Source of the DNA: Paramacrobiotus metropolitanus
Taxonomy: Eukaryota > Tardigrada > Eutardigrada > Parachela > Macrobiotidae
Direction of reading: 5' to 3'
NCBI RefSeq assembly: GCF_019649055.1
Contig: NW_026570291.1
Location: 434,001-498,000, forward strand
Length of the DNA stretch: 64,000 bases
Shown here: piece after piece, positions 18,493 to 41,509 of the stretch
Layout: every line of letters starts with the position of its first letter
Numbering within the stretch: the stretch's first letter is position 1
Notes under the pieces: generated by a model
Database searches by the model: none
Told to the model about the DNA's origin: nothing
Seen by the model: only the letters and a program-made list of their open reading frames with translations
Position numbers and translations under genes: made by a program

Positions 18493-20343
18493 ATGCCGGG
18501 ATCCAAATCTTCACACTCCTCCGATTCCGACTCCGATCATGACAAGAAGCAACGTAAGACCATCCAACCGGATGAACCGGCACCGGTAGCCACAACGCAG
18601 CCGACGGTGCCGGTGCAGCCACCGCCCTACCCTTCCGGAGGGCCAGCGCCGTATCCGGCGGGAGCACCCGCTCCTTATCCAGCGGGAGCACCTGCGCCGT
18701 ATCCCGCCCATTTTCAGCAGCCCATAATGGAGCAGCCCAACATGGGCATTCCCATGCAGCCCATGTACAGTAACCATATGGGCGGACCCGGATTGCCGCA
18801 CGCAGCGCCACAGCAGCAGATTATGCAGGCCCCGGCGCAAATCCCCGTCGGATGCCCGCCGGGATTGGAATACTTGACGATGGTGGATCAGCTGTTGGTT
18901 AAACAGAAAGTGGAGCTTTTTGAGTGTAAGGCTGTTGTACTGTGCGGTTTATCATACTACCTGAAAGATTACGACTCTAACCTATTACACGGTATTTAGA
19001 CTGAACGTTTATGTATTCTTTACGCGTTTCAACAGAAGTTATAGATTTTGTTGTATAAGTCTACAGATAGTGTAAAAAAAGGTTACGTACATACTTTAAC
19101 TGAAAATCTGCGTATTTTAAAGTGTTATGTATTTAGACGAAACGTTTACGTATTTCTTTAAGTGTTTGTTTTTTACGTATACATTTTTTCCTACTGTACA
19201 TTTAACAGAAAGCAGAGAGTTTTGAATGGAAGCCTATTGTAAAGTTGTCAAGTACGTGTTTCATATGCGGCCTGGTATTTTAATATGTAAATACAACAGT
19301 AACGAAATACAGTAAAATTTCAATTGATTACATACAGTATTGGTTTTTGATTAGTATTGACTGGATGGGAAACCAACAATAAATACGACATCCTGAACAG
19401 TATGGGTCAACAAGTGTATTACGCAGCGGAAGACAATGACTGTTGTACACGTAATTACTGTGGTCCGATTCGGCCGTTCGATATGCGAATTTTCGATAAT
19501 GCCAAGAATGAGGTGATGCACCTCTTCCGGCCGCTGAAGTGTACCGGATGTTGTTGGCCTTGTTGCCTTCAAGTAAGCATATTCTGCATCACTGTCAATC
19601 ATACGAATATTTTAACACTGTATGTAAACCTTTATTTTTATGTTTTAGGAACTGGAAGTTATGTCGCCTCCAGGAACGCCGATCGGTTATATTGTGGAAG
19701 AATGGTCATTCCTTGTACCGAAATTCCGCATTGAAAATGCTAACCGGCAGACGGTACTGCGACTGACTGGGCCAATCTGCAAAATTTCTTGCTGTAACGA
19801 TGTCGAGTTTCCGGTAATTAATTTTGCCTTTGCGACGTTACGTGATTGTTTGCAAATAAACGAATAGTAAAACTAACATGTTTAGGATTAATCACTTCAA
19901 ATGTATTTTAGTTATTTGCTTAATGTATTTTAACAAGAACAGTTAATATTATTTAATGTAATTTGCTGTATGCATTTAAGTGTTTTCAGCTACAGTAAGG
20001 TGCACCTAATGTGCACCTCTAATTTATTATTTAATTTTTATCATTCTAATGTTTTTTTTACCTAATGTAGGTACTCAGTGCCGATGGAACAAAGGTTGTC
20101 GGCAAGATATCTAAGCAGTGGACGGGAATTCTTAAGGAAGCCTATACCGACGCCGACAACTTCGGCATACAGTTTCCCATGGATTTGGATGTGCAGACAA
20201 AAGCCACTCTATTGGGAGCGTTGTTCTTAATTGTACGTACATAGCAAAACCCGAAATTTACTATGGCCTTCGTTTAAGCGCTGGCATTATTTCTGTTGCA
20301 GGACTTCCTCTACTTCGAGACGCAAAATCATAACAACCGTTAA
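18493..20343 (+). CDS. PLSCR: Phospholipid scramblase, PLSCR1 type
   Basis: Calcium-activated scramblase that moves phospholipids between membrane leaflets. Five exons: 18493-18925, 19355-19572, 19649-19813, 20071-20232, 20302-20343; 339 residues. Residues 1-130 are Pro-rich with repeated APYPAGAP units, as in the proline-rich N-termini of PLSCR proteins. Then come [23 protein letters not shown], the [10 protein letters not shown] strand, a palmitoylation-type cysteine cluster (GCCWPCC, about 210-216), IGYIVEEW, the calcium-binding [12 protein letters not shown] (299-310) and a C-terminal membrane helix ([17 protein letters not shown]). Length is close to human PLSCR1 (318). The start ATG opens the only frame that fits. 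All key motifs are intact, so it should be functional. A divergent relative lies at 31063-32020. Confidence 0.95.
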
Positions 20344-27540: not shown

Positions 27541-28470
27541 AAAAATGTACTGCTATACTTTCAAATGCCCCAGCACTTAATCGTCAGTTTCGGCCTGTTC
27601 GGGGATGTTCGGGAAGCTGACCTTGTTACTGAAAGTAATACAATACTTTCACAAAGTATTGCATTACTTTCGAAGTACTGCCATACTTTCAAATGCCTCA
27701 GCAATTAATCGTCAGTTTCGGCGTGTTCGGGAATGTTCGGGAAAGTCACCATGGTACTGAAAGTAATGCAGTAATTTCAAAGTATTGCATTACTTTCGAA
27801 GTACTGCCATGCTTTCAAATGCCCTAGCACTTAATCGTCAGTTTCGGCCTGTTCGGGGATGTTCGGGAAGGTCACCTTGGTACTGAAAGTAATGCAGTAC
27901 TTTAAAGTATTGCTCTACTTTCGAAGTACTGCCGTACTTTCGAATGCCTCACCAATTAATCGTCAGTTTCGGCGTGTTCGGGGATGTTCGGGAAGGTCAC
28001 ATTGGTACTGAAAGTAATGCAGTACTTTTAAAGTATTGCATTACTTTCGACGTACTGCCGTAATTTCAAATGCCCCAGCACTTAATCGTCAGTTTCGGCC
28101 TGTTCGGGGATGTTCGGGAAGGTCACCTTGGTACTGAAAGTAATGCAGTACTTTAAAAGTATTGCTCTACTTTCGAAGTACTGCCGTACTTTCAAATGCC
28201 CCAGCACTTAATCGTCAGTTTCGGCCTGTTCGGGGATGTTCGGGAAGCTGACCTTGTTACTGAAAGTAATACAATACTTTCAAAGTATTGCATTACTTTC
28301 GAAGTACTGCCATACTTTCAAATGCCTCAGCAATTAATCGTCAGTTTCGGCGTGTTCGGGAATGTTCGGGAAAGTCACCTTGGTACTGAAAGTAATGCAA
28401 TACTTTCAAAGTATTGCATTACTTTCGAAGTACTGCCATACGTTCAAATGCCCTAGCACTTAGTCGTCAG
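27541..28470. repeat. 126-bp tandem satellite, about 7.5 units
   Basis: The anchor CAGCACTTAATCGTCAGTTT recurs at 27571, 27699, 27825, 27950, 28076, 28202, 28328 and 28454, spacings 128, 126, 125, 126, 126, 126, 126. Each unit has a TCAGTTTCGGCCTGTTCGGG half and an AT-rich half built of AGTACT and AAGTATTGC palindromic bits. Two unit types partly alternate (CACTTAATC with CGGCCTG, and CAATTAATC with CGGCGTG). Since 126 is divisible by 3, open frames with a 42-residue period appear (28196-28456), probably by chance. Confidence 0.9.
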
Positions 28471-29400
28471 TTTAAAAGTATTCCTGTACTTTTAAAGTAT
28501 TGCAGTACTTTTAAATTACAGCAATACTTTTAAAGTATTATTTTTATAGCATTGCAGTACTTAAAACGCCTCAGCGCTTGATCTTCTGTTTCGGCTTGTT
28601 CGGCGTTGTTCGGGAAGGTCACTTGGCACAGCAGTATAATACTTTGAAAGTTGTACTTTAGAAGTATTGCTGTACTTTCAAGTGCTGCAATAATTTAAAA
28701 TGCCTCAAGGCTTTATCGTTTGTTTCGGCTTGTCAAGTGCAACAGTAACTTTAAAGTGCTGCTGTAACAATGTGACCTTCGAACAACGCCGAACAAGCCG
28801 AACAGACGATCAAGCGCTGAGGGTTTTAAGTACTGCTATACTTTAAAGTATTGTTGTACTTTAAAAGTATTGCAATACTTTAAAAGTACAGGATAACTTT
28901 CAGAGTATTGCTGTACTTTCAAAGTACTGCAATACTTTAAAATGCCCCAGCGCTAGATCGTCTGTTTCGGCTTGTTCGGCGTTGTTCGGGAAGGTCACTT
29001 TGGCACAGCAATACTTTGAAAGTACTGTTGTACTTTAAAGGTATGGCTGTAGTTCAAAGTGCTGCAATACTAAAAGTATTGCTGCACTTTCAAACTACTG
29101 CAATACTTTAAAAGTGCAGGAATACTTTAAAAGTATTGCTGTAGTTTCAAAGTATTGCAATACTTTAAAAGTACAGGAATACTTTAAAAGTATTGCTGTA
29201 GTTTCAAAGTATTGCAATACTTTAAAAGTACAGGAATACTTTAAAAGTATTGCTGTACTTTCAAAGTGCTGCAATACTTTTAAAATGCCTCAGCACTTGA
29301 TCGTCCGTTTCGGCTTGTTCGGCGTTGTCCGGAAAGGTCACTTGGCGCAGCAGTACTTTGAAAGAACGGGTGCACTTTAGAAGTATTGCTGAACAGAAAG
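28471..29400. repeat. Degenerate satellite extension with an inverted unit
   Basis: Units related to the 126-bp satellite continue but are diverged. TTTCGGCTTGTTCGGCGTTG occurs at about 28588, 28966 and 29308. One copy is inverted, at about 28770-28825 (AACGCCGAACAAGCCGAACA). Between them are runs of AAAGTATTGC and AGTACTTT words. Confidence 0.8.
29100..29272. repeat. 57-bp tandem subrepeat, 3 copies
   Basis: CAATACTTTAAAAGT(G/A)CAGGAATAC starts at about 29100, 29157 and 29215, each followed by TTTAAAAGTATTGCTGTA. The copies are nearly identical, so this expansion is younger than the surrounding satellite. The period of 19 codons gives an open frame (QEYFKSIAVVSKYCNTLKV repeated) with no sign of being a real gene. 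Confidence 0.85.
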
Positions 29401-31062
29401 CCAGCAGTACTGTCTCCAGGCAACACAGTATGCAAAGCAATATGTAAAGCACTTCGATTAACAAGCTGTACCTTATAGACAACAACAACTAAATTAATAT
29501 AGTACTTAACAGTACAGTAACTACTATAGTACAGTGCCTACGTTAGCGCTCTGCAAAGGTTAACATATTGCAAAATTACTAATGGGAGTGTATATTTAAT
29601 TAGATAGTATTTGCACGACACAGTATGTGACGTACAAAATTTGGTGTGTAAATGCCAGTATAGTACTTAGCGTTCAGAACGACGACCTCTACACAATAAC
29701 TGCAAGTTTTGCAACATTAAATTTTGCTGTCAATGACGTGTCAATCGCTGTCAATGGTACCTGCATTCCTGATCACTGTCCACTGCTGTTACCCAGGGGC
29801 TTGGGTATTACACGCTTGTGCAATCAATACCCAATATCGACCGCACGATGAGAAAGTACCAGTGAACTGCACCAGGGCGCACAGCGAGATGGGGAATTAT
29901 AAACAATAGGGTAACAATTACAGCACTGCCATAAATAATTAATATTGCACCAATACGGACGGTGCGACGGCAGCGATCAGTCAACAGTGCATTACACGGT
30001 ACGTCGATAAACAAAGCAATTGGTACTTGACCATAGTACTACAAGTCGGCGACGAGAAAATTGTATGATTTATTAGCACCTAAGTAAGTACACAAACAAT
30101 GGTACATGCAGCAAAAGTGCACATGCATGCACCAATGGTGCAATTGAATGCACCATTGGTACGGATCTTTACTGGTGCCGTTTTTTCACTCAGAATTTTT
30201 TCGCTCACTTTCTCACAAACATTCAGTGTGCGAAAGAATTATTTATTTCATTTAAACACTGTTTAGTGCATGACTGGGATTTTTTATGGCCTTTACAGGG
30301 TGAAAATTCCATCGCGTTTGCTCCTTTAAACCTGATTTTGAAAACTGTTCTGATAAAAAAGTGTAGTTTCTGAGCTTTAGAACGAATCTGTACACTTTGA
30401 AAATAAACCAGTTCAAGGCGCACGATATATTACTTCCAGAATCGTCATAAAATTGTGCAGGCTGTAAACAGGTAATCCCGCTAACCGGCGGTTAGCGACT
30501 ATGGTAACCGCTAACGGTTTAAAACTTTGAATGATAAAATTTTTGAAAAAGAGACCCATCAGAAAAACCTAGCGGAACCAAGACGAAAAAAGTGGTGGTC
30601 GTTATGGGCATGTTAGTTGTCGTAGCCTTGCATATATTGCATTTGCTACCTTTTAAGGTCAATCTTTGAGTACGGCTCACTTCCGACTCCGAGTATGTGC
30701 GAGTACAAACTGTGTATTAAGTATAATCGCGCTGTCTTATCAGGAAGGTCAATACAGCCACTTCTGTTACAAGACAAGTGTTATAACTTCAAGGCCGGTT
30801 GTACAGATACATAGGTGATCATACTACGCACAGCTGGCTCGACATGAATATAAATAACAATCTTATTTATTCGCACATCCATAAATGCGCACAACCATAC
30901 AACTGTTATCTCCCAAATAAGCAAAGTAAAAAGATAACACCACACGCTCACAGCCACGTGCTTCTGACACTGGCCAAAGCCGCTTACGCTAACGAGACTC
31001 TTCTCTAGCTGTATAGTGGCAGTGTTGACAAACAGCCGTCTGCACACGTTGGAGTAAACAGC
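29401..31062. other. Intergenic
   Basis: No gene that I can support. Repeated GTACAGT and GTACCA words continue in 29480-30180. A minus-strand frame at 30781-31140 overlaps the start of the next gene and is a shadow. The last few hundred bases should contain the promoter of the gene at 31063. Confidence 0.4.
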
Positions 31063-32020
31063 ATGGGTGATCGCACTGTCTTTCCGCCAATCGGTGATGC
31101 AGTGACCGATTACCAGCGGAGTCTGCACACCATCCGTCATCCAGCGTACTGGCCGTCCAAAAAACCCTTGGACGGGGATACCCTCCCGACAGAATGGGTA
31201 CCCAAACTGCTACCATCACCGCGATGCCTTTCCGGATTGCAGTATCTCAGCGGTGTTAATCATTACGTCCTCACTGCAGAAAAGCACCCCACAGATGCGG
31301 GTATTAAGGAAAAACTTTCAAAGCGTTTATTGACCAGTTAGGCTAGTTTGCATGCTCTGATTTGGCTGTGAGTTTCATTGTAGAAACGACTGGAATAATA
31401 CCGCGAGCTGATCACTACAACATCCGCGATCGGACGGGATGCAGTATGTACACCTGTCTTGTCGTCAGCGCGTTTTCGAGTCGTGGTCCTCTGAAGCGAA
31501 AGCGACCCATCCAGGTGAAGATCTGCGACCGGCTGGACGAAGTGCTTTTGCATGGAAACATTGAGAAGAGTCTATTGTTAGAGAGAGTTGTCATTCGAGC
31601 GTCTGACGAACAGACACCCATTGGGCATATCTGTATCCGCTCTGGCTTGCTTTTGGGAAAGACCGTCATCCAAGACTCGAGGGAAAGACGAATTTTAGAG
31701 ATTAAGCGTAGAAATATTTTCCAGCAAGGAAAATTGGCACTTGAGGTAAGAACTGCTTTACAATACTCGTACAAGAGCTAATTTGCTAAGTTATATGACT
31801 GTTGGATAGTAGATAATCTGGGTTAATTTAGATTAAGAATTCTGTAACCGGAAAATCCTGTGGACGGTTTATGCTGCTGTTGTCGGCGCTGGCAGAGAAC
31901 GGCACAGCTAGTATATCGGGGACTGATCTACTGCTGACCGTGGAACTACCGGCGCAGTACAAAGCCATGTTGCTGGTTAGCGCAGTTTTGCTGCTTCATA
32001 ATTCTTCTCTTAAAGAATGA
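31063..32020 (+). CDS. Highly divergent scramblase-like protein
   Basis: Three exons, 31063-31300, 31384-31745 and 31832-32020, give 262 residues. Order of similarity to the scramblase at 18493: PRCLSGLQYLSGVNHYVL (cf. [15 protein letters not shown]), ETTGIIPRADHYNIRDRTG (cf. [17 protein letters not shown]), TPIGHICIRSGLLLGKTVI (cf. [19 protein letters not shown]), and VELPAQYKAMLLVSAVLLL (cf. [18 protein letters not shown]). Both introns sit at the same alignment positions and phases (1 and 0) as introns 1 and 3 of that gene, which supports common descent. Lost: the Pro-rich N-terminus, the CCxxCC cluster and the acidic calcium loop (SISGTDLLL replaces DADNFGIQF). Frames are clean, so it is probably expressed, but calcium-activated scrambling is doubtful. 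AATAAA at 32250 may end the transcript. It converges on the guanylate cyclase gene. Confidence 0.75.
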
Positions 32021-32391
32021 AACACTGCCTGAAGTCCTGCACGGTGGCTGCATTTTGGAACAAATCAATCGCTGTGTACCTTGCCACCTTCGGTTTTTCA
32101 TATATATATTTCCTGCACATACTTTGTAATTTGTATCTTGAATCTGTAATTAAAAGTGTACACAACAAATATTAACTTCTAAGACCGTAGTTAAGGTACA
32201 AGTATTCGCAAAACTAACAGACAACGCATGCGCATTCATGGCAGTTCAGAATAAAACCACAATTATACTGTTTTCTTTTGGACTCTTTTGATGGACATCT
32301 CGAATCCCGTAAGGCCTGATATACAGTAATTATTAAGTTTGGTCATCTCCGACCTTAGTCCAAATTGACCATGCGATCCATAAAATGGCTT
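32021..32391. other. Convergent 3' ends
   Basis: The 3' UTRs of the scramblase-like gene (+) and the guanylate cyclase gene (-) face each other here. AATAAA at 32250-32255 suits the plus-strand gene. No clear AATAAA for the minus strand was seen. Confidence 0.5.
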
Positions 32392-39025: not shown

Positions 39026-39312
39026 GATGATAAGGGGTAGGAATATAAAGTGCTGAATATATTAAATTATATTAAAGGTGATATGTTTGACGAAAAGTGA
39101 TAATGAAGAAAGGGTGTACTAATCCAGTGTAAGGAAGAAAGAGTCTACATTGAATTAGGGTGAAGGTAGTGGGAGTTTTACTGTAATATGGTATAAATAT
39201 ATTCGACTTTCTGGTTGTTCGTATTTGAGTGTTTAATGAAGTGTTACAGGAAGTGGAGTGTGTTGCGGGTTGTAGATGGTGATGGATTGTTGTGGAATAT
39301 TCAAGAAATTTC

Positions 39313-41509
39313 GAGAAAGTTGATTGCTTAATGGAGCAGACTATTATGTTTTGCTCTGATAGTGTTGGATGTGTAGGAACAGGTGGTTTGTATATGGGAA
39401 GTAGGTTGGTAGGTACATTAAAAGGTTGTACGAGAAAACGTATAGCTTAATTGGTTTGTTGACTGGATTTTTTGAGTTCGGTGCGTATATAAGAAGTTGA
39501 GGAATCTTGTGTTGAAGTTATTATGGAGTGGACGAAGCATATGGAGTGAGCAAAATGTTTTTCTTGTTGGTTATTTTTGGTGGCCGGTGTGGATTTGTGG
39601 ATACTTACTGATTCAGGCTGCTGTCTTTTGTTTGGCTTTAGTAAGTCTTTTTTGGTTGAGTATGGTTTAGTAAGTTTTCTTTCATACATTGTTTTCGTTT
39701 AAGAATTCTTTTTTTAATAAAATAATAGAAGGTGGTTGTGATCGTAAGAAATACATGCGCGAGTTTATGCGTGGTTATAGAAAGAAACGCAAAATAGAAA
39801 CTGATGGTAATTGTAGCAGGGAGGATAATGTAGGAAGTGGTGGTGATGGTAGATATGAGAATGTAAAAGTTAAAAAGCAAAACTGTAATCGGAATACTAA
39901 AGGTGGTGCGTTTTCTGGTATGTTTGGAAAAAAATATTGGAGAAAGGTCATTGTTGCTTATGTGCCGTGCGATTGTTGCAATATTTTAGTTGCATCTGAT
40001 TTGATTGGTGACAATTCAGGAATGTTACATAGTGATTTAAAAGCTGATGCTAGAATATGTGCAGGATGTATGACTTTACATAAGCATAAAACTTTTAATC
40101 TTTGTGTTTACGATTTACGGCGAAATTGTTTAGATATTGGTAGAGAAAATTGGTTGAATAATCTTGGTTACATGGAAGTCCAGGCAGTGCGTTTGTTACA
40201 GCCTTTTTCGACAATATTGCATTTGAAAAATAGCTTAACAAAACGTGTAGGGCAATTATTTCATGTAACTAGTGATCCTAGTGAAAATTTCGAATGTTTG
40301 CTACCACGTCCGGCTACAGATTGTTTATTAGCTGTATATCAAGCTAAAAAAAGATTTTGATAATTCTAGTCGAAAAGTCATTTATTCTGTTGATTTTAAC
40401 ATTGTTTATAAGGCGCTTGATTTTTTGATTTCTAATAACGGGTTTTTTGATTTTTAAATTAATCTGGGACTGGAAATCAAAAACTGGATTAAAAGAAAAA
40501 GCGTATCCTAATCTATTTCCGTTTGGTTATGGTGGTTTAACTAATGATCGGCCTTAAATTATTCACCTGAAAAATATTTTGAATTGCGTTTTTGAAGTGC
40601 AGAAAATAGGTTTCAAAAAGATTGCTCATACGTTTTCGAGCTCTAAACCTTTATCAACGGGATCAGGTAGAACGGACGATTAATTATGTTCTTAAAAATG
40701 ACAGTTTTTGTACAGAGAAATGACATTCTTTGTAAAGGAAAAGATTTAGGTAATAAAAGTGTTGTTAAGTTTTTATATCCAAAAATTGGAAAGGTTACAC
40801 GAGGTAGTCAAGCATATTACAACGGTGCTAAACGACATTTGCGGAGTATGGTAATGTGTAATGGTTGTCCGGATCTTTTCTAAGCATTACTTTACGATTT
40901 TGTCCTGAATTGTTGTGTTTTGCTGACCCTGTTGAGTTTACATTTTTGTTTTTTAACTTTACATTTTCATGTCTAACATCATCACTGCTTCATTATCTTC
41001 CTTGCTACAATTACCATCAGTTTCCATTTTGCGTTTTTTTTTCTATAATCACACACATACTCACGCATGTATTTCTTGCGATCACAACCAGTTTCCATTA
41101 TTTTATTAAAAAAAACAATACTTAAAAGAAACTATCTATGAAAGAAAACTTACTAAACTATACTCAACCTAAAAAGACCAAAGCCAAACAAAACGCAACA
41201 ACCTAAATCAGTACGCTTCCGAAATTCTGAATCGGCCATCAGAAAATAACCAACAAGAAAAACATTTTCCTCACTGCATATGCTTCGTCAAATCCATAAA
41301 ACTCAAACACAACGTTCCTCAACTTCTAATATACCCACCAAACTCAAAAAAATCCAGTCAACAAACCAGTTAAACCAAACATTTTCTCGAACAACCTTTT
41401 AATGTACGTCCCAGCCTACATCCCATATACAAACCACCCGTTACTACATATCCAAGACTATCAGTGCAAAAAATAATAGTTCGCTCCATTAAGCAATCAA
41501 CTTTCTTGA
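39313..41509. mobile_element. Fold-back element: Helitron fragment between about 0.58-kb inverted arms
   Basis: Bases 39313-39889 match the reverse complement of 40936-41509 at about 80% by eye. Shared words include AAGTTGATTGCTTAATGGAG, TTTTTCTTGTTGGTTATTTT and GATGGTAATTGTAGCA. The unique middle (about 1.05 kb) holds broken Helitron N-terminal coding sequence. The arms include the first 67 codons of that frame, so the start of a Helitron gene has been duplicated head to head. Identity well below 100% means the duplication is old. No helicase, terminal CTRR or target duplication was recognised. Confidence 0.75.
39689..40960 (+). pseudogene. Helitron-like N-terminal (replicase-associated) domain, degraded
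   Basis: Helitrons are rolling-circle DNA transposons whose protein carries an N-terminal helitron-like domain before Rep and helicase parts. The first frame (39689-40360, 223 codons) has an N-terminal YMREFMRGYRKKRK, like the basic start of Helitron proteins, and WLNNLGYMEVQAVRLLQPFS. A shifted frame at about 40480 reads KAYPNLFPFGYGGLTNDRP, the family's diagnostic LFPFGxGGL motif, followed by a stop. A third fragment (from 40686) has VTRGSQAYYNGAKRHLRSM, and a fourth frame continues FLSITLRFCPE. At least three frame changes or stops make it nonfunctional. Rep HUH motif and helicase are absent. Confidence 0.75.

Follow-up and report, generated by a model that had tools for sequence, protein, structure and literature searches.

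The window, a 64,000-nucleotide stretch of DNA from Paramacrobiotus metropolitanus, contains a gene (gene B) that is probably an intact and expressed paralog of a canonical phospholipid scramblase (gene A), encoded about 10.7 kb upstream on the same strand. Gene duplication commonly yields diverged paralogs in which key residues are lost, and gene B belongs to a known family, not to a new kind of system. The account that best explains the sequence data as a whole, and that we judge about as apt to be right as wrong, is that gene B encodes a functional, fast-diverged barrel paralog, which would be cytosolic or nuclear and would not scramble lipids. A first-pass annotation of the same DNA had read gene B as a scramblase paralog without calcium loop and cysteine cluster; profile searches, BLASTP and shared introns support that reading. 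The literature searches made here returned no report of such a scramblase paralog.

Gene model

The features of both genes are as follows.

18493..20343, + strand: gene A, canonical phospholipid scramblase with five exons and 339 aa, PF03803 E 1.1e-87; the comparison gene
18493-18925, 19355-19572, 19649-19813, 20071-20232 and 20302-20343, + strand: exons of the gene A model
31063..31300, + strand: gene B exon 1, with the ATG, a 54-aa N-terminal part without PPxY and the start of the scramblase-like domain (as aligned to gene A); open frame
31301..31383, + strand: gene B intron 1, phase 1, GT..AG, at the alignment column of intron 1 in gene A
31384..31745, + strand: gene B exon 2, which covers the central part of the scramblase-like domain, with the TPIG turn but no cysteine cluster; PF03803 E 4.3e-4 by itself
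31746..31831, + strand: gene B intron 2, phase 0, GT..AG, at the alignment column of intron 3 in gene A
31832..32020, + strand: gene B exon 3 with the stop codon; other residues in place of the calcium loop and the conserved core, and a hydrophobic segment towards the C-terminus (residues 245-255)
32149..32255, + strand: polyadenylation-like signals downstream of gene B (ATTAAA at 32149, AATAAA at 32250), pattern matches only

The three exons of gene B join into a frame of 262 aa with 0 stops; here the coordinates, length, introns and open exons of the first-pass annotation were all reproduced. The start codon is preceded by A at -3 and followed by G at +4, and upstream the frame is closed by a stop at 31006. 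Among the splice alternatives, 32 in-frame combinations give more than 230 aa, and the later donors at 31325 or 31337, used with the same acceptor, would add 8 or 12 residues. We chose the model with the best-consensus splice sites at both introns and a register that agrees with gene A; for intron 1, the most likely donor is the one at 31301. Tandem arrays (27547-29288) end about 1.8 kb upstream of gene B; they begin with a 126-bp unit (27547-28473, 7.3 copies), which gives way to units of 19 bp and 57 bp.

Homology to scramblases, shared introns and proposed fold

Gene B is almost certainly homologous to scramblases, judging from several sequence comparisons. The first-pass annotation had suggested a search with the Scramblase profile PF03803, which matched residues 54-202 of the gene B product with E 1.4e-4, although at 21.7 bits the score is below the gathering cut-off of 25.4. 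Exon 2 by itself matched PF03803 (E 4.3e-4), and in a six-frame scan it matched a bacterial profile (E 1.6e-5). BLASTP of gene B against gene A gave E 4e-5 with 34/140 identical residues, and the alignment of the two proteins has 22% identity. As a test independent of Pfam's model, we used a bacteria-only profile of 51 dereplicated sequences out of 129; the underlying loci had been fetched via relatives of gene A and the Pfam model, not via gene B. It scored gene B at 18.2 bits, with 6.8 as the best of 5000 gene B shuffles. A narrower profile, restricted to the bacterial sequences nearest gene A, gave 11.6 bits versus 5.4 for the best of 5000 shuffles. In the weaker test of a plain Smith-Waterman comparison, 1/1000 shuffles reached the real score. 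An NCBIfam search of gene B returned 0 families, and the best E-values in PDB sequence searches were 0.34 for gene B and 0.076 for gene A.

Paralogy of the two genes appears to be best supported by their introns. Alignment A1 places those of gene B at column 25 (phase 1) and column 156 (phase 0), the positions of gene A introns 1 and 3, while gene A introns 2 and 4 have no counterpart in gene B. Both correspondences had been proposed by the first-pass annotation, and both agree in column and phase (2/2). The chance of both matches is about 3e-5 if the gene model and the alignment are taken as given and the choice among splice options is ignored. Since these introns are common to both genes, gene B would have been copied from an intron-bearing scramblase gene, probably either gene A or an older paralog. 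In a rough tree, gene B was basal to a clade (support 0.96) that joins 11 bacterial sequences with gene A, a placement that is unreliable and was left unused. The branch lengths in this tree were 4.97 substitutions per site for gene B and 1.72 for gene A. In the best reading, gene B would have been strongly accelerated after copying.

PF03803 is patchily distributed in bacteria, where we found it in 6/297, 53/294 and 9/288 genomes of three phyla, with best matches down to E 1e-52. Searches of genome contigs with alignment A3 gave 266 relatives, and the best 80 of the 266, which were kept, are all bacterial judging by their record titles. Among plasmids there was one relative, in Persicobacter. 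No relative came from phages, from genome contigs searched with alignment A1, or from viral contigs, for which alignment A3 and both genes served as queries.

PLSCRs have been described as members of the Tubby-like superfamily (PMC4725246). Our model of the bacterial homolog L003 (42 sequences, pLDDT 83.3, pTM 0.82) matched At5g01750 (1zxu, E 2.2e-4) and TULP1 with IP3 (3c5n, E 6.6e-3) best among PDB entries, and therefore the scramblase family has the Tubby / LURP-one fold, which gene B may share. For gene B, structure prediction, one of the checks suggested in the first-pass annotation, covered the contiguous exon 2 piece. It gave an all-beta model with nine strands at low confidence (pLDDT 59.7, pTM 0.42), but no match to this fold: none of the 50 structures listed is a Tubby / LURP-one entry, and the best E was 0.13. 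The structure models used 42 and 41 of the 80 loci L002-L081. Perhaps gene B keeps a Tubby / LURP-one-like beta-barrel with its C-terminal hydrophobic segment, which is among the four most hydrophobic 15-residue windows of the protein. Another possible consequence of losing otherwise near-invariant residues is that the barrel has become unable to fold.

Loss of the calcium site, the cysteine cluster and the conserved core

Opposite the acidic loop of gene A, gene B has SISGTDLLLTVE, with S, S and L where gene A has D, D and F (loop positions 1, 3 and 9). These positions are reported to be crucial in PLSCR1 (PMC8202325). Position 12 is still acidic (E), and the stretch contains one D and one E. 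It follows that the first-pass annotation was right about a replacement, at positions 1, 3 and 9, but not in calling the new stretch neutral. The bacterial loci L086-L129, too, often have another residue where the animal loop has its first and last Asp (D in 11/44 and 12/44).

The palmitoylation cluster is absent: CTGCCWPCC of gene A faces a gap and GNIEKSL in gene B, in line with the earlier claim that the CCxxCC cluster is missing. A Pro-rich tail, by comparison, was wrongly said to be gone, since the Pro-rich part is N-terminal and shortened from 120 residues in gene A to 54, with 9 Pro left and neither PPxY nor PxxP. The Pro-rich coding region of gene A holds a 24-bp tandem repeat (2.6 copies, 18643-18704). 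In gene B, the importin-type segment GKISKxWTG of gene A has been lost as well, and the gene B product is basic (pI 9.33), versus an acidic gene A protein (pI 5.27), with KRKR at residues 117-120. Bacterial homologs are basic at this site too (K in 40/51, R in 26/51), so that KRKR may mean little.

The loss in gene B was understated before, as the conserved core around the loop, GKISKxWTG included, is gone too. Around the loop, W, G, E, A and D each occur in 44/44 bacterial homologs, and the helix D in 43/44 (L086-L129). Gene A retains 6/6 of these residues and gene B 0/6, having L, A, N, I, S and N in their place. In exon 3, gene B keeps 1/10 of the columns that are shared with gene A and reach at least 90% conservation across 51 bacterial sequences, and 0/6 of those that reach at least 98%; for the conserved columns of exons 1-2, the same comparison gave 1/3. 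Some of the 51 sequences dereplicated from 129 come from loci that had been retrieved with patterns containing some of the core, and we therefore recounted on the 44 loci L086-L129, which were fetched by the Pfam model; these were also picked by score, and for one phylum they represent 30 of the 53 matching genomes.

The core pattern K-W-G--KE--T-AD plus helix D is absent from gene B, where the placement of these positions rests on the register anchored at the intron. No profile matches exon 3 by itself, hmmalign with the bacterial profile left it unaligned, and a gapped local alignment of the gene B tail with gene A was not significant (P 0.07). Ungapped and started at the shared intron, however, exon 3 scored 12 against gene A (shuffle mean -47.7, sd 15.5, P 3.5e-4), and all other offsets from -6 to +6 scored -8 or lower. 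Homology of exon 3 was assigned on the basis of this register.

Compared with known members of PF03803, gene B thus resembles animal PLSCRs and Drosophila Scramb1 and Scramb2 in its domain homology (residues 54-202), the G of the TPIG turn and the C-terminal hydrophobic segment, but it differs from the animal proteins by the missing cysteine cluster, acidic loop, GKISKxWTG and PPxY, and in being basic instead of acidic. Bacterial members likewise have no cysteine cluster, and their profile detects gene B; unlike gene B, the 44 sampled have retained the core residues, with helix D in 43/44.

Candidate roles of the gene B product

With the calcium site, the fatty-acid anchor and the conserved residues lost, gene B is probably no longer a calcium-driven scramblase. 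Its barrel would be neither anchored by palmitate nor switched by Ca2+, and we predict that the protein does not scramble lipids. Instead, it would act as a binding barrel in the cytosol or the nucleus, whose basic surface (pI 9.3, KRKR) would bind acidic lipid heads or protein partners. Given the missing Ca2+ and palmitoylation sites, the basic character and KRKR, an unanchored, Ca2+-independent barrel is the most economical reading of the sequence, and a non-scrambling barrel of this kind seems to us nearly, if not quite, an even call. The nuclear option is weakened by the loss of the importin-type segment.

Mutants of known scramblases point in a similar direction. In human PLSCR1, a five-Cys mutant and the Ca2+-site mutant F281A are both reported to leave Ca2+-induced PS exposure unrestored, and the former is also lost from the plasma membrane (PMC10371867). 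Palmitoylation-site mutants are described as moving to the cytosol and the nucleus (PMC12003403). For Drosophila Scramb1, both the putative Ca2+ site and the palmitoylation sites are reported as required for slit diaphragm formation (PMC11335299). The possibility of a calcium-independent role, raised by the first-pass annotation, hence fits the sequence and the PLSCR1 mutants, but the role itself is putative. Human PLSCR1 is reported to scramble weakly, with an antiviral action separable from scrambling (PMC10371867, PMC12003403).

Whether gene B is alive was judged from its coding pattern, and we hold it likely that the gene is functional. Nearly all core residues are lost and the branch of gene B is long (4.97 versus 1.72 substitutions per site for gene A), which would fit a dying or recently dead gene under relaxed selection, bound to become a pseudogene and without a function of its own. 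We consider this rather unlikely. Base shuffles of gene B contained 12.5 stops on average and 0/20,000 were stop-free, versus 262 open codons in the gene. Identity to gene A at codon positions 1, 2 and 3 is 0.38, 0.47 and 0.30 (composition expectation about 0.26), that is, positions 1 and 2 are better conserved than position 3; exons 1-2 gave 0.40, 0.49 and 0.30, and exon 3 showed a weaker pattern of 0.33, 0.43 and 0.30. The GT..AG sites are intact and in frame. Taken together, the open frame, the codon pattern and the splice sites speak against long neutral decay, which appears very unlikely, and would leave room for a recent loss. In its synonymous codon choice, gene B is described better by gene A usage than by flank composition, by 17.4 bits.

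If gene B still acted on membranes, it might move or rearrange lipids without Ca2+, held in place by the C-terminal hydrophobic segment and not by palmitate. The segment is retained and bacterial family members also do without the cysteine cluster, but helix D and the adjoining core are lost, and in PLSCR1 the helix was modelled within the barrel, which would be too short to span the bilayer (PMC10371867); such a lipid mover seems improbable to us. Less probable still is an error at the 3' end of the gene model, where another last exon, a sequencing error or alternative splicing would hide a normal core. It would explain the lack of a separate profile match for exon 3, and alternative in-frame splice choices do exist. 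However, the core motif occurred once in the six-frame scan of the window, in gene A, and exon 3 both begins at the shared intron position and fits the gene A register at offset 0 only.

A more specific version of the non-scrambling barrel, which we put forward tentatively and think somewhat doubtful, is that gene B is a selectively maintained pseudo-scramblase: a barrel freed of the shared core, with a Ca2+-independent, unanchored task in binding lipid heads or proteins, possibly in the nucleus. If true, it would be a natural test of what the core shared by bacterial and animal proteins does. The role of animal scramblases of this family is disputed, and a natural paralog of the gene B type would separate the function of the barrel from that of the switch. 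W, G, E, A and D, invariant in the bacterial homologs sampled, are the residues worth testing first.

As to the rest of the window, the six-frame scan with two bacterial profiles detected pieces of gene A and gene B and one extra minus-strand stretch within gene A (E 0.82), and no third scramblase copy. The window also contains EGF and laminin-G exons (15-16.6 kb), pieces of a guanylate cyclase and of a kinase-like gene (33-34 kb, minus strand), a piece of a ubiquitin hydrolase (42 kb) and one that is MIF-like (54 kb); with this content, it looks like animal DNA. A scan for bacterial promoters and terminators has no bearing on an animal gene, and Rfam gave 0 matches across the window. Long imperfect inverted arms at 39311-41509 (about 2.2 kb), with blocks of 163, 143, 57, 69 and 58 nt that are 74-93% complementary, enclose a 228-aa open frame (39674-40360, no Pfam match at 1e-3). 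GC skew is opposite at 39-40 kb and 41-42 kb, and the stretch as a whole looks like a mobile element.
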